A DNA stretch of 64,000 bases from NCBI RefSeq assembly GCF_002494345.1, contig NZ_NXNI01000001.1:2046001-2110000 (forward strand), in the 5' to 3' direction. The position numbers and the translations under genes were made by a program. Of the stretch, positions 42,058 through 51,587 are shown piece after piece (within the stretch, counting starts at the first letter, position 1; the number at the start of each line of letters is the position of its first letter). The DNA comes from Natrinema ejinorense. Lineage in GTDB: Archaea > Halobacteriota > Halobacteria > Halobacteriales > Natrialbaceae. Under the pieces are notes generated by a model. That model did no database searches. It saw nothing but the letters and a program-made list of their open reading frames with translations, and was not told the DNA's origin.

Positions 42058-43803
42058 TTAGTCGTCCGCAGGTGCGTTTCCGTCCCGGTTCTTCTCGGCG
42101 ACGATGTCCGCCGCGGTCTTGTCACTCGGCATCGGATCGGGGCTGTGACACTGGCGGACCATCTGTTTGGTCTCGAGTGGCGGCTCGGTGGTCACGAGTG
42201 AGACGGCGATCGTCACTGCGAACACGATCGGCGTGCCGATGAGTGCCGAGCCGATGGCCGGCATCCACGTCGAGATTGCCTCGATGCCGAGACCCGCACC
42301 ACCGTTGACGAGGCCGAAGTTACCCTCGTTGATCATGGGGATGAACCAGACGACGATGCCGGTCACCATGCCGCTGAGCGCGCCCTGCCGGTTCGTGTTC
42401 TCCCACCAGAGTCCGAGGAAGAACATCGGGAACAGCACGATGGCCGCGAGGGAGAACGCGAACCCGACCAGGGCCGCGATCGGCTGCTGGGGGTTCAACG
42501 CGAAGATGATCGTGAGCAGACCGATCAGGATGATGCTCAGGCGACCGACGAGCACCTGCTGGCGCTGCGTCGCGTCTTCGTTGATGATGTTCGCGTAGAT
42601 GTCGTGGGAAATCGCGGACGAGGCGGCGATGAACAGGCCGGCCGTCGTCGCGACCGCCGCGGCGATGCCGCCCGCCGCGACGAAGCCGACGAACCACTCC
42701 GGAAGGCCGGCGAGCTGTGCGGCCAACACGACGAGGACGTCACCGGCGGCGCTCGTCATGCCGGGATCGCCGTAGACGGCACCGATCTGATCGCCGTACA
42801 GCGCGGTCCCGACCGCAGCGAAGGCGGGCGCGCTGAGGTACAGCAGCGAGATGAAGAACAGCCCCCAGGTACACGACCAGCGGGCGACGCGTTCGTTCTT
42901 GACCGTGTAGAACCTGACCAGCACGTGGGGCAGTCCACACGTCCCGAAGACCAGGCTGAAACAGGTCGCGACCCACAGGTAGTAGCTCCCGCCCGCGAAC
43001 GGGGCCGAGAACTCGCTCGCGAGACTGTCGATCATCATCCCGTACTGAAGCTGGGGGAGCACCGTGGTGAAGCCGCCCGCCCAGCCGGTCGCGACCAGCC
43101 CGAGCAGGAACGCGACGATGAGGATGACGTACTGCAGGACCATGTTCTTGGTCGCGCCGAGCATCCCCGACAGCGAGAGGTAGGCGACGGTGATGACCAT
43201 GAAGACGACCATCATCGTCTGGTACGCGGTCAGCAAGCCGCCGGTGAGCGCCGACCAGTCACCGAGGATGTACAACCCGACGAGCCCCATCCCGCGGGCC
43301 TGACCGAGCGCGTAGACGAACCCGATCAGGAACGTGGTGAGCGCCGCAAGGGCGCGTGCGGTGTCGGAATTGAATCGGTCGCCGACGAAGTCCGGTGCGG
43401 TGTACTTCCCGAACCGCCGCATCTGGGCGGCCATGAAGATCAGCAGGATGAAGTAGCCCGTCGTCCAGCCGATGACGTACGCGAGGCCGTAGACGCCTGC
43501 TGTCGCAACCGTTGCAGCCACGCCGAGGTACGTCGCCGCGGACATCCAGTTGGCCCCGATGGCCATCCCGTTCTCGATGTTCCCGATCGACCGACCGGCG
43601 ACCCACATGTCGTCGGTGTCGGCGACCTGGAACATGAAGCCGGCAACGATGAACAGCAACATCATCCCGATGACGATGATCGCCGGCAGCAATTTGAACG
43701 AGACGTTCAGACTCTCCGGGAGTAGTTTGGAACCCGACTGCAGCGGCATCAATTCCGCCGCGCCGATCGCGAGATCGGCCACCAGCGGGGCAGCGTCGAT
43801 CAT
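42058..43803 (-). CDS. Sodium:solute symporter large subunit (VC_2705/ActP-like)
   Basis: 581 residues with about 13 membrane helices of the SSS family. AGRSIGNIENGMAIGANWMSAA is the unwound first core helix of the fold, and later segments such as GISHDIYANIINED-type sequence (SAISHDIYANIINED) are typical. The TIGR03648-like branch works with a DUF4212 small subunit, which overlaps it here as ATGA. Placement next to an acetyl-CoA synthetase gene and upstream of a Usp gene suggests uptake of acetate or another short carboxylate; this is inference from context. Confidence 0.9.
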   Translation of the reverse strand: MIDAAPLVADLAIGAAELMPLQSGSKLLPESLNVSFKLLPAIIVIGMMLLFIVAGFMFQVADTDDMWVAGRSIGNIENGMAIGANWMSAATYLGVAATVATAGVYGLAYVIGWTTGYFILLIFMAAQMRRFGKYTAPDFVGDRFNSDTARALAALTTFLIGFVYALGQARGMGLVGLYILGDWSALTGGLLTAYQTMMVVFMVITVAYLSLSGMLGATKNMVLQYVILIVAFLLGLVATGWAGGFTTVLPQLQYGMMIDSLASEFSAPFAGGSYYLWVATCFSLVFGTCGLPHVLVRFYTVKNERVARWSCTWGLFFISLLYLSAPAFAAVGTALYGDQIGAVYGDPGMTSAAGDVLVVLAAQLAGLPEWFVGFVAAGGIAAAVATTAGLFIAASSAISHDIYANIINEDATQRQQVLVGRLSIILIGLLTIIFALNPQQPIAALVGFAFSLAAIVLFPMFFLGLWWENTNRQGALSGMVTGIVVWFIPMINEGNFGLVNGGAGLGIEAISTWMPAIGSALIGTPIVFAVTIAVSLVTTEPPLETKQMVRQCHSPDPMPSDKTAADIVAEKNRDGNAPADD

Positions 43804-44252
43804 TCGTCGACACCTCCGTCAGTCGCGGCCGCGTCGTCGGGGACGGTGTCGGTCGTCTCCGGTTCGACGACGCCCTGTTCGATCCCGTACTTCTCGTCGA
43901 TCTGGTCGCGCTTTCGTGCATACCACACCGAAAGGACGAGCGCTGCTCCCGGTCCGACGATCGCGAGCAGGAAGTAGTGCAACGGGAAGCCGATCAGTGG
44001 TATCGACTGCGTCATCGTATCGGGCGCGAGACGCGTCGCCGTGATCGGTGCGAACGTCGTCAACACCCAGATGCCAAAGCCGATCCAGATGATCCGCAGG
44101 TGATCCCGCATGAACGGGGTCGCCGGCTTCAAGAGGTTGATCTCGACGTCCATGTAGTCGATTTGCTGTTCGCGCTCGACGTCGCTCATCCCGCCGTCGG
44201 TCGCTATGTCACGGGAACCGTCTTCCGTATCGTGATTGGTGTTATCTGGCAT
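43800..44252 (-). CDS. DUF4212 symporter small subunit
   Basis: 150 residues beginning at the ATG at 44252; the frame is open much further upstream but runs through the neighbouring acs gene. An acidic N-terminus of about 45 residues is followed by two membrane helices (IWIGFGIWVLTTFAPITAT and FPLHYFLLAIVGPGAALVLS) and the conserved YARKRDQIDEKYG, the core of DUF4212 (small subunit of the solute:sodium symporter pair). It lies 71 bp downstream of acs and overlaps the large subunit by 4 bp. Confidence 0.88.
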   Translation of the reverse strand: MPDNTNHDTEDGSRDIATDGGMSDVEREQQIDYMDVEINLLKPATPFMRDHLRIIWIGFGIWVLTTFAPITATRLAPDTMTQSIPLIGFPLHYFLLAIVGPGAALVLSVWYARKRDQIDEKYGIEQGVVEPETTDTVPDDAAATDGGVDE

Positions 44253-44323: not shown

Positions 44324-46303
<1,980 letters not shown>

Positions 46304-46652
46304 GGTCCATCCACATCATTGATAACCATGATAGTAAAGCCGGCCTCTAGTTGTGCAAAACCGATCGGATTCTCACAGGGTGATCTAGCAAATCCGTATT
46401 GTATTAATACGCGAGAGAGGGTCATCGTCCGCGATATATTCGGCTATTGCCGGCGAGAGGGGCCACGGTTCGTGATGTGGTCCCAGTATGTGGGACAATT
46501 CTGTCCGCTCCAGGACGCGGCCCTAGAGAGCTAGTATCCATCCCAGGCGGTGACGCTCAAACTGACACTCCCTGCGAAATCGATGCGACAGGTCCGTGAG
46601 AAGCCACGAGTACCGACCGCTCGCTCCGTGTCGCGGGCCCCGATCGCCGCGT
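46304..46652. other. Intergenic region upstream of acs copy 1
   Basis: 349 bp between acs copy 1 and the Bat-like gene, both on the minus strand. It holds the acs TATA-like element near 46336, a 5-bp-arm repeat GTATT-gtatt-AATAC near 46397, and a perfect 17-bp inverted repeat at 46480-46496. No gene is seen. Confidence 0.6.
46480..46496. promoter_or_regulatory. Inverted repeat, candidate operator or terminator
   Basis: GTCCCA, a 5-bp spacer GTATG, then TGGGAC: perfect 6-bp arms. It lies about 140 bp upstream of the acs TATA element and about 155 bp after the end of the Bat-like gene, so either a regulator site or a transcript-end hairpin is possible. Confidence 0.4.
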
Positions 46653-48863
46653 CTAGTCGGCCGGATCGTCGAAGAACGTCCGAAGCAACTCGTGTTGTCC
46701 CTTCCGGAGGTGGTTGTGTAACGTCGGCGAGGAGACACCCATGGCGTCGGCGATTTCCTCGGCCGTGCTCTCCCGTGGCCAGTCGTAGTAGCCGCCGAAA
46801 TACGCTGCCCGAAGCGCAGCCACCTGGCGGTCGGTCAACCGATCTTCGAGCCCTTCGCGGAACTCGCGGGCCGTCTGGACGGTCCGTTCGGCGTCGCGTT
46901 TCCCGAGCAGTTCGGAGTCGGGGAACGACGAGCGGAGTCCATCGACGATCGTCCGGAGGTCAGCGTCGGCCGCACAATCGCCGATGATCGTCGCGGTACC
47001 GCCCTCGAAGAGCGCCTCGTGGACGGTCACGCCGTACTCGGACAACGTGACGATCGGACAGGAACCCTCGATGACGAACTCGACGCGCCACCCGTCCTCG
47101 TCGGTTTCGACCAACCGACAGTCCTCGATTTCCGTGGCGGCGTCGGCGAGGTCGAAGACGTCGACCGGCGATGCCCCCTCGAGTCGGACGTAGTAGAGTT
47201 GCGTCGACTCGCCGATCGGAACCCGCGAATCGAGTTCGAACCGACAATCGAGCCGACGCGAGGCGTCGACGAAAAAGGAGCGGTCGTCGCGACAGGCGAC
47301 CTCGAGTTCGAGGACCCGGTCGGACAGCAGGAGGTTCCGTCGGCGAACGGCACCGATCGCGTAGCCGACCTGCCGGCCGATCGTCGTGAGCCACGTCCGC
47401 TCCTCCTCGCCGAAGGCGTTCGAGCGGTCAGTCGCGAGCGAAAGCGCCCCGTAGACGGTGTCGCCGTACGCGAGCGGGACTCTCCCGACGGTCCCCTCGA
47501 ACCGCTCGCCGTCCTCGAGGGTCGCGGTAACCTCGCCCGCAACCATCACCTGGTCGGTCGCGTCGGTGTCAGCCGCCGGTTCCGGCCCCCCGAGGGCAGC
47601 GATCGGTTCGTCCGCGTGCCACTCGTCGGGAACGACCCCCTCGACCGCATCGAGATCGATTCCGCTGGACGCGCGACTCTCGCGGGGGCGATCCGCGAGC
47701 GTCGTTCGATCGATCCACGCGAACTCGTAGCCCCGTCCGTCCGTGAGTGTGGTACACGTCACCGTCTCGATCTCCTCGTGATCGGTCGACTCGAGCAGCG
47801 CAGCCGTCACTGCCCGGTGACGCCGGGAGATCGCATACAATCCGTCGAGTTCGTTTCGCTGCTCGCGGACGTCCTCGAGTTCCTCGTAGGCGGTCGTCAT
47901 ATCGCGGACGAAGACGGCAAACCCGCGGTGTCGGCCCTGGTCGTCCCGGAGCGGCGAGACGACTTCGGTCGCACGGAACTGCGAGCCGTCCTTGTGGACG
48001 CGCCAGCCATCGGTCTCGCAGCCGGACTCCTCGAGCGCCCTCGAGAGCGTGCGTTCGGGCGCACCGTCCTCGACGGCGTCGTCGGTGTAAAACGCGGAGA
48101 CGTGGGTGCCGACGATTTCGCCGGCTCGATAGCCGAACATCGCGGCCGCGCTCCGGTTCCAGCGTTCGACGTAGCCGTCGGCGTCGATGCGGACGAGCGC
48201 GTAGCGTTCGCTCGCGGCCAACAGCAGCCGGACGACGCTATCGTCGCTCACCGCGGGGCCGGAACGCGGGTCGCCGGACCGGGGGCCCGATGGCTCCTCG
48301 ACGGCGTCGAAGGCGTCGACGATTTCGCCGTCAGTCGGTTCGGGCATGTACGATTCGAGGGCCTCGAAGCTGCGCCAGCCACCCACAGTCTTGACGACGC
48401 GGGGGTTGACGTCGTGTTCGACCAGCGCGGTGTGTGCGAAGTACTGTCGGAGGCTGCTCGTGGAAACGTCGGTGAGACCGGGATCCTCGAACAGGTCGGC
48501 CGCCCGATCGGCGACGTCGGAGACGAGCATCTGGAGCCGGCGCGGCGTCACGCTGAAGATCCGGTCGTCGGTCGAGAGGTCGTTACTGCGGGCATAGCGT
48601 CGAAGTTCGCGTTCGACGCGGGTCGGCAGGTAGGCAGTGCGGCGTCCGCCGTCACCGGTCGGAACTCGCATCAGGTATCGCGGCGGATCGATCCGCACCT
48701 GCTCGATGTCGTCGATCGTGAGACGGGTCAGCTCGGCCGGCCGAAGCCCGACGTCCCCACAGAGCCGAAGCACCAGGGCCTCGCGATAGGTTTCCGCGGC
48801 ATCCAGCAGGGAGTCGTACGCCCGTCGCGTGAGTACCGCCCCCGAATCCCCCTCGAGACTCAT
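46653..48863 (-). CDS. Bat-like regulator: degenerate tyrosine recombinase-PAS-GAF-HTH_10
   Basis: 736 residues. Residues 1-185 resemble a tyrosine recombinase catalytic domain (CGDVGLRPAEL with Arg41, SSLRQYFAHT with Arg139, and Tyr172 in LESYM), but the His three residues before Arg139 is Ser, so DNA cutting is unlikely. A PAS domain follows (about 210-330: YALVRIDADGYVERWNRSAA and GFAVFVRDMT), then a GAF-like region, a bacterioopsin-activator domain and a C-terminal HTH_10 (LTDRQVAALRAAYFGGYYDW and SSPTLHNHLRKGQHELL). It is a cytoplasmic sensor-regulator. Lying between two acs genes, it may control acetate use; this is inference. Confidence 0.85.
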   Translation of the reverse strand: MSLEGDSGAVLTRRAYDSLLDAAETYREALVLRLCGDVGLRPAELTRLTIDDIEQVRIDPPRYLMRVPTGDGGRRTAYLPTRVERELRRYARSNDLSTDDRIFSVTPRRLQMLVSDVADRAADLFEDPGLTDVSTSSLRQYFAHTALVEHDVNPRVVKTVGGWRSFEALESYMPEPTDGEIVDAFDAVEEPSGPRSGDPRSGPAVSDDSVVRLLLAASERYALVRIDADGYVERWNRSAAAMFGYRAGEIVGTHVSAFYTDDAVEDGAPERTLSRALEESGCETDGWRVHKDGSQFRATEVVSPLRDDQGRHRGFAVFVRDMTTAYEELEDVREQRNELDGLYAISRRHRAVTAALLESTDHEEIETVTCTTLTDGRGYEFAWIDRTTLADRPRESRASSGIDLDAVEGVVPDEWHADEPIAALGGPEPAADTDATDQVMVAGEVTATLEDGERFEGTVGRVPLAYGDTVYGALSLATDRSNAFGEEERTWLTTIGRQVGYAIGAVRRRNLLLSDRVLELEVACRDDRSFFVDASRRLDCRFELDSRVPIGESTQLYYVRLEGASPVDVFDLADAATEIEDCRLVETDEDGWRVEFVIEGSCPIVTLSEYGVTVHEALFEGGTATIIGDCAADADLRTIVDGLRSSFPDSELLGKRDAERTVQTAREFREGLEDRLTDRQVAALRAAYFGGYYDWPRESTAEEIADAMGVSSPTLHNHLRKGQHELLRTFFDDPAD

Positions 48864-48995
48864 GGCATTCCTTTCGTTGCTTCTAACGACTCGAACATAA
48901 TTCTATCGCCCGTAATCGGCATTCGCGGACGATTCTCACCAACGCGGAGGTTATCGGGAGGTGGACCGTTTCGGGACCGTAGAATGAGCGAAATC

Positions 48996-50990
<1,995 letters not shown>

Positions 50991-51018
50991 GTCTCGTCCG
51001 AACCGTGGTGAGTCAGAG

Positions 51019-51027
51019 GAATAAACG
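51019..51027 (-). promoter_or_regulatory. TATA box of acs copy 2
   Basis: Minus strand GTTTATTCC about 32 nt upstream of the ATG at 50990. Confidence 0.5.
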
Positions 51028-51089
51028 TTCCTCCGAACCGCCATCCCTGGGGGCAGTGACAGTATCCTGATTCGGCTCGGGTCGCCCGG

Positions 51090-51587
51090 CTACAGCTCGT
51101 TCGTCGAATCGATATCCGAGATTTCCTCGGAATCCGGGTCGGTACCGGGACGACGCACGACGTAGACGTCGTAGCGCTGGTCGTTCGCGACCGGACTGCC
51201 GACGCTCGACTGCGGTGCGATCACCGAGCCCGCGTTCTCCGAGCCGATAAAGACCACCGACGCGTCGACGTCGGCGGCGACCCGGCGGATCTCGCGGACG
51301 GTCTCCGTCGTCGACGTCGCGGTCGGTTCGTCGGAACTGACCCGTTCGGTCCGGAACGTCGCCGACGGGGTAACCTCCCGGGCGCGACTCTCGATCCCCT
51401 CGGCGATCGCCTCCGCGTCGAACGGCTCGCCGTGAGCGATCCAGCCCCGGTCGCGCGCGTAGTCGGCATCGTCCGGGATCACCGTCAGGACGACGACTTC
51501 CTCGTCGAGCAGGTCGCCGAACATCGACGCCCGCTCGAGTGCGTGCGTTGCCAACTCCGAGCCATCGAACGGAACGAGTAGTGACAT
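51090..51587 (-). CDS. Universal stress protein-like, divergent
   Basis: 165 residues. It opens as a Usp domain (MSLLVPFDGSELATHALERA) and ends its core with YDVYVVRRP, but the usual ATP-binding GxxGxxxxxxxxxGS loop is replaced by SENAGSVIAPQSSVGSPVAN, so nucleotide binding is uncertain. An acidic tail follows. It lies 99 bp upstream of acs copy 2 on the same strand. Confidence 0.82.
   Translation of the reverse strand: MSLLVPFDGSELATHALERASMFGDLLDEEVVVLTVIPDDADYARDRGWIAHGEPFDAEAIAEGIESRAREVTPSATFRTERVSSDEPTATSTTETVREIRRVAADVDASVVFIGSENAGSVIAPQSSVGSPVANDQRYDVYVVRRPGTDPDSEEISDIDSTNEL

Follow-up and report, generated by a model that had tools for sequence, protein, structure and literature searches.

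Why does a Bat-like regulator of a haloarchaeon, lying between two acetyl-CoA synthetase genes, begin with the fold of a tyrosine recombinase? The locus lies in a stretch of 64,000 nucleotides of Natrinema ejinorense DNA (contig NZ_NXNI01000001.1, positions 2,046,001 to 2,110,000), here named the window. The regulator and its neighbors are the following:

51090..51587, minus strand: universal stress protein gene, upstream of acs-b
48996..51044, minus strand: acs-b, AMP-forming acetyl-CoA synthetase (ACAS_N, AMP-binding)
46653..48863, minus strand: regulator CDS, 736 aa, with a putatively dead tyrosine-recombinase domain, PAS, GAF-like, BAT and HTH_10
44324..46303, minus strand: acs-a, AMP-forming acetyl-CoA synthetase (ACAS_N, AMP-binding)
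43800..44252, minus strand: DUF4212 protein
42058..43803, minus strand: ActP-like sodium:solute symporter (SSF); synteny with Haloferax points to an acetate transporter

On the plus strand, opposite the regulator and acs-b, lies a 940-aa open frame (47019-49841) that was taken as spurious; spurious long opposite-strand frames are common at about 65% G+C.

A pattern search of genome contigs confirmed 122 stretches, from which 80 loci were kept, and this search favours the fused family, because its patterns were built from that family. In all 80 named loci the recombinase domain and a BAT/HTH_10 match share one frame, and in 76 of them the fused gene is flanked by two acs genes; the exceptions are two loci cut by a contig end (L045, L081) and two without an upstream acs within 3.6 and 7.6 kb (L096, L100). 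In a second sample of 20 loci, of which 19 were valid, acs genes were found on both sides in 19/19, and the tie between regulator and acs genes that the original prediction had proposed is thereby supported. The same gene order, with a shorter regulator without PAS, was observed in Haloferax, Haladaptatus, Halocatena and Halococcus plasmids. Some variation was also seen. Of the 80 named loci, 44 have PAS (L038-L078, L091, L094, L114) and the rest do not; the Haladaptatus pallidirubidus chromosome carries the entire acs-regulator-acs cluster twice (L084, L085), with identical match figures; and the recombinase half is in a different frame from the BAT/HTH_10 half in L288 (G019), L285 (G219), L287 (G336), where about 1.3 kb lies between them, and L271 (G279), a locus of the second sample.

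We propose that the protein would be the sensor-regulator of an acetate-use cluster, in the order acs-b, regulator, acs-a, DUF4212, actP. In the parts covered of two Haloferax papers, the acs7-ssf-uspA operon of Haloferax volcanii gives a transcript on acetate, whereas cells on glucose or casamino acids show none (PMC7746861), and in Haloferax mediterranei transcript levels on acetate are raised 3.47-fold for HFX_5129 and 3.06-fold for HFX_5131 (PMC11784441). Neither paper uses the word "regulator" in its main text (0 occurrences).

The domains of the regulator are arranged as follows:

48309..48842, minus strand: tyrosine-recombinase catalytic domain, residues 8-185 (Pfam, XerA alignment, AlphaFold2)
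47883..48239, minus strand: PAS domain, residues about 209-327 (Pfam, PAS match at 224-323)
47349..47846, minus strand: GAF-like region, residues about 340-505 (GAF_2 match confined to 462-503 and below cut-off)
46854..47321, minus strand: BAT domain, residues 515-670 (Pfam, above cut-off)
46683..46838, minus strand: HTH_10 DNA-binding domain, residues 676-727 (Pfam, above cut-off)

Residues 1-188 correspond to 48300-48863 on the minus strand. Pfam detected Phage_integrase at residues 10-173 (40.1 bits with respect to a cut-off of 27.1), and BAT (153.8 bits), HTH_10 (66.7) and PAS_9 (47.8) also exceeded their cut-offs, while GAF_2 remained under it (25.9 vs 28.6 bits). The protein has the Bat-type layout, that is, a BAT and HTH_10 C-terminus with PAS and a GAF-like region. 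An AlphaFold2 model of the recombinase domain, built on an alignment of 44 sequences, reached a mean pLDDT of 92.3 and a pTM of 0.86, and its top solved matches were two structures of XerA, 5hxy (Z 18.7, rmsd 3.4, 166 aligned) followed by 4a8e (Z 17.5, rmsd 2.1, 144 aligned). The N-terminus of the regulator is a tyrosine-recombinase catalytic fold, beyond chance. There is no core-binding domain N-terminal to it, the frame opening 13 residues before Met1. The net charge of the fused domain, -6, speaks against DNA contact, though the host is a halophile.

In an alignment to the archaeal XerA 4a8e, Arg41 and Arg139 take the two R positions, Trp163 the H/W position and Tyr172 the Y position, and Ser136 falls on the box-II His; the original prediction had named these five residues, and the XerA alignment agrees with it. 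The catalytic Lys is deleted from the regulator of the window together with the hairpin that bears it. We then compared 85 distinct fused domains (that of the window and 84 others, after merging identical proteins from 87 loci). Lys is present in 0 of them and His in 1; the first Arg is kept in 74 and the second in all 85, while Trp and Tyr are found in 83 and 59, respectively. The full six-residue catalytic set was found in 0/85. More specifically, 84 fused proteins have a gap, and one an Arg, in the column that holds Lys in the stand-alone relatives, with no Lys nearby, and the Tyr172 position is not conserved, as Tyr is lost in 26/85. Stand-alone haloarchaeal recombinases of about 200 aa showed the complete R-K-H-R-W-Y set in 75/75 parsed, with 4 of 79 loci unparsed (L166, L216, L229, L233); their Arg I and Trp counts are partly fixed by selection, because parsing demanded G[LVI]R..E and GGW or GGH. 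With neither the box-II His nor the Lys hairpin, a fused domain should therefore not perform recombinase chemistry. Judged from these sequences, catalysis is lost across the fused family, in line with the proposed loss of the His.

The stand-alone enzymes, which also have no core-binding domain, are the closest relatives found outside the fusion. A 100/100 branch separated 28 fused rows from 43 stand-alone rows in a tree built without the helix columns, and a search of a phage collection for a direct viral relative of the recombinase domain gave no match. Among the genomes of a phylum sample, 38/294 matched at E <= 1e-25, and none of these is listed outside the order of the host. At E <= 1e-30, 283/391 class genomes matched, a figure set aside as a fusion count because stand-alone recombinases reach similar E-values.

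If the domain no longer cuts DNA, does it still bind it? The gap between acs-b and the regulator gene contains, in the window, two inverted repeats 97 bp apart:

48969..48993, minus strand: inverted repeat site 1, TTTCG-N15-CGAAA, directly past the acs-b stop
48872..48896, minus strand: inverted repeat site 2, GTTCG-N15-CGAAA with a single mismatch, immediately ahead of the regulator start codon

The weight of this repeat is comparative, because the pattern does not stand out in the window alone (3 matches at one mismatch vs 2.72 expected, not significant). Across the loci, TTCG-N15/16-CGAA was found in 75/80 of the gaps vs 3.15 in dinucleotide shuffles, a background computed without the 40-base margins, and the five-base form in 58/80 vs 0.33; 50/80 gaps carry two copies. 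The four-base repeat is missing from 5/80 gaps, those of Halocatena, Halococcus and three others (L034, L035, L083, L084, L091). Gaps of <=60 or >=700 bases are left out of the motif counts. With 40-base margins, the second sample showed the repeat in 17/19 gaps, two copies in 15 and none in 2; with tight gap edges the count fell to 12/19, because sites overlapping the acs stop or the regulator start were cut. The inner arms showed no complementarity beyond expectation, and a scan not designed for archaea detected no terminator-like site within 46250-49050.

In 47/50 two-site loci (a looser count), the centre of site 2 lies 13-24 bp before the start codon. Of the 40 strict pairs, defined as loci with exactly two sites, 23 are spaced by 95-99 bp, 13 by 106-111 bp and 4 elsewhere, so that the two spacing classes, about 97 and 108 bp, are roughly one helical turn apart. 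Helical phasing of the pair is only suggestive, because the spacing clusters follow lineages, and a 10.5-bp phasing was considered weak. Elsewhere in the cluster the repeat is rare or absent (0/83 acs-a promoter regions, 3/79 upstream of acs-b, 2/79 after acs-a). It accompanies the fused gene in many genera, including Haloferacaceae and Haladaptataceae records besides the kin of the window.

As a control, we used HTH_10 paralogues without a recombinase domain from 3 genomes, with the start of each gene set at the first ATG or GTG in its open frame; 27 of 32 non-fused HTH_10 matches had a locus and the other 5 had none. The four-base repeat was present upstream of 0/27 (249-350 bases each), and both fused controls with a covered upstream region had two copies. 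Away from the upstream regions, the four-base form gave 10 matches in 8 of the 27 loci. In the 4.48-Mb genome of the host, the five-base N15 form has 8 matches, one of which is site 1; five of the other seven overlap a listed ORF, and two (L157, L159) are outside ORFs. L159 (G000:C1:1383446-1383470) is a TTTCG-N15-CGAAA flanked by a BAT-like paralogue on one side and a universal stress protein gene on the other.

Repeats also occur near the genes of the stand-alone recombinases. An inverted repeat of 26-27 bp with at least 8 pairs was found at -145..-100 in 55/57 distinct upstream regions (24.25 in shuffles). In the group with Gln at the position equivalent to residue 111, the arms are such as TTTCGTGTTT, and their outer bases and 26-bp length are as in the N16 form of the fused repeat. 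These catalytic-domain-only recombinases with a complete set (L148-L156, L165-L234) resemble a minimal recombinase-plus-core-site module. Since stand-alone recombinases have a repeat near their own gene and the paralogues have none upstream, the comparison indirectly favours the recombinase domain as the candidate reader of the paired repeat.

The conservation of the fused domain is concentrated in one element that could make such a contact:

48492..48545, minus strand: helix 107-124, candidate DNA-recognition helix (AlphaFold2 model and conservation)

V105, R108, R109, Q111 and M112 are each present in 85/85 fused domains, among the most conserved positions, and the positions of R108, R109, Q111 and M112 are variable in stand-alone recombinases. 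Residues 107-124 form a helix in the AlphaFold2 model, which we take to be equivalent to the Cre helix that enters the major groove (Arg259). We also compared residue 111 with the half-site in the stand-alone enzymes. A pattern chosen post hoc was present in 14/19 Q111 vs 0/50 R111 enzymes, with relatedness uncorrected; with a motif preset from the fused loci, also uncorrected for relatedness, the counts were 8/19 vs 6/50 (Fisher p 0.015, rank test p 0.06), so that the apparent association of residue and half-site is weak.

The second DNA-binding domain appears to have an element of its own:

46335..46360, minus strand: conserved element of the acs-a promoter, TTTTGCACAACTAGA-N7-TTTA, with a candidate activator site for HTH_10 and a TATA-like box

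Its core, [AG][ACG][CT]TAG-N8-[CT]TTA, was found in 74/83 acs-a promoters vs 0.38 expected, and upstream of acs-b in 3/79. In five genomes searched, the fuller pattern has one match each in the host's own genome and two kin and none in the two more distant ones. Its ACTAG core resembles the Bat activator sequence. One genome, G258, has two fused regulators (L272, L276), each between acs genes, and neither has the exact-pattern acs-a element.

These data bear on the proposed looping between the two flanking acs genes. A site shared by both acs promoters was sought and not found: the gap repeat is confined as described above, the acs-a element belongs to acs-a, and the two elements are unlike each other. 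That part of the original prediction is thus not supported. Any loop, if one forms, would be placed by the paired repeats at the regulator's own promoter and not between the acs genes. DNA contacts at both ends of the protein, the other part of the proposal, are indirectly supported, since two unlike conserved elements stand at two promoters.

Taken together, we favour as fairly probable a joint reading of the locus, drawn from sequence comparison, in which a dead domain binds the paired repeats and represses its own promoter while HTH_10 activates the acs-a operon. The recombinase domain would be kept as a DNA-binding dimer or tetramer gripping a degenerate 25-28-bp repeat of the recombination-core type, TTTCG-N15/16-CGAAA. 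The repeat pair would flank the regulator's own promoter, which the bound domain would repress; autorepression is probably the role of this grip, perhaps by bridging the two repeats in a synapse without strand exchange. Acetate status, sensed by the PAS/GAF/BAT part, would lead the C-terminal HTH_10 to activate the acs-a operon from the element beside the TATA-like box. A bolder version, which we hold only tentatively, is a recombination synapse without recombination: dead domains would pair the repeats like core sites, bending the regulator promoter into a small loop, the sensor part would control the synapse, and HTH_10 would activate acs-actP. If this were true, a recombinase would have been turned, along with its core site, into an old gene switch of haloarchaea.

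The strongest alternative is that the domain has no DNA contact and serves only dimerisation or signal relay, HTH_10 reading both DNA elements. The erosion of the catalytic residues and the absence of a core-binding domain are consistent with it, as is the conservation of HTH_10, which exceeds that of every other domain across the 30 nearest relatives, with 45/52 invariant columns. However, the conserved core of the recombinase domain is helix 107-124 with its invariant Arg-Arg-x-Gln-Met, the repeat shares size and own-gene placement with those of the stand-alone recombinases and is not upstream of the 27 HTH_10 paralogues, and the two DNA elements are unlike each other, so that we consider this explanation unlikely. 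Less probable again is that another, unlinked regulator binds the repeats and the recombinase domain has some other role. The repeat is defined by comparison only, which leaves room for such a protein, but it tracks the fused gene across the genera mentioned, Haloferacaceae and Haladaptataceae included, and its five-base N15 form is found at only eight places in the host genome. Finally, it seems very improbable that the domain is still active through an unusual catalytic centre, for instance nicking or joining DNA or complemented in trans: Tyr172, both Arg and Trp remain in the window protein and Tyr in 59/85, but Lys and its hairpin are missing, His is kept in a single fused domain, and Tyr is lost in 26/85 while the fusion and, in most loci, the repeat persist.

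Part of this picture is already in print, namely the architecture, as fam30-04, a name found in the open literature only in PMC8371274, and dead tyrosine-recombinase regulators, as MrpR (PMC10516654). Searches of main texts in the open literature found no earlier account of family-wide catalytic loss, of a tie between the fused regulators and an acetate cluster, of the paired repeat, or of the resemblance of this repeat to the sites of active sister enzymes. Current annotation names the fused proteins bacterio-opsin activator domain-containing proteins, and neither this annotation nor the archaeal review, in the parts covered, states a role for the recombinase domain (PMC8371274). If our reading is true, a recombinase was captured as a metabolic switch while its active sister enzymes persist for comparison, so that rules linking helix 107-124 to the half-site are directly testable. 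It would also provide a candidate regulator and operators for a haloarchaeal acetate operon with an acetate-specific transcript in Haloferax volcanii.

With respect to known systems, fam30-04, one of 17 archaeal tyrosine-recombinase families, has the same Phage_integrase, BAT and HTH_10, some members with GAF_2, and is classed as a recombinase; the main-text parts covered mention neither a loss of catalysis nor operators nor the acs cluster (Badel et al. 2021, PMC8371274). Bat of Halobacterium, as described in the portions covered of two papers (PMC3184054, PMC5847659), is likewise a PAS/GAF activator; it has a helix-turn-helix at its C-terminus and controls a neighboring operon; its N-terminus, in contrast, is a divergent REC domain and not a recombinase (PMC5847659), and it controls bop and not acetate genes. 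Crypton-derived host genes (PMC3212892) are tyrosine-recombinase domains domesticated by the host. They are eukaryotic and belong to unrelated proteins. The haloarchaeal stand-alone recombinases share with the fused domain the absence of a core-binding domain and, in most, a repeat upstream of their own gene, but they are unfused and catalytically complete. The phi3T repressor SroF has the same fold, solved on DNA (9rgl, 9rd5; Z 14.6-14.9, rmsd 3.1-3.5, 160 aligned to our domain model); in the material covered it is, unlike the window regulator, a phage repressor with an antirepressor. A precedent is MrpR/YopR, the master repressor of the Bacillus phage SPbeta, in which, according to the passages covered, a recombinase fold has lost recombination and binds repeated operators (PMC10516654); its structures 8a0a, 8bj6 and 8bpz match the domain model with Z 12.8-13.4, rmsd 3.4-3.5, 156-158 aligned and 13-14% identity. 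MrpR is a phage protein that keeps the core-binding domain, Lys and Tyr, whereas the window regulator has neither core-binding domain nor Lys, and a fused sensor or second DNA-binding domain, both present here, is not described for MrpR in those passages. Its authors, in the same passages, consider such recruitment of recombinases more widespread than anticipated (PMC10516654), and the regulator described here, with a recombinase fold without the catalytic set and a conserved, often paired candidate operator, may be of this kind.
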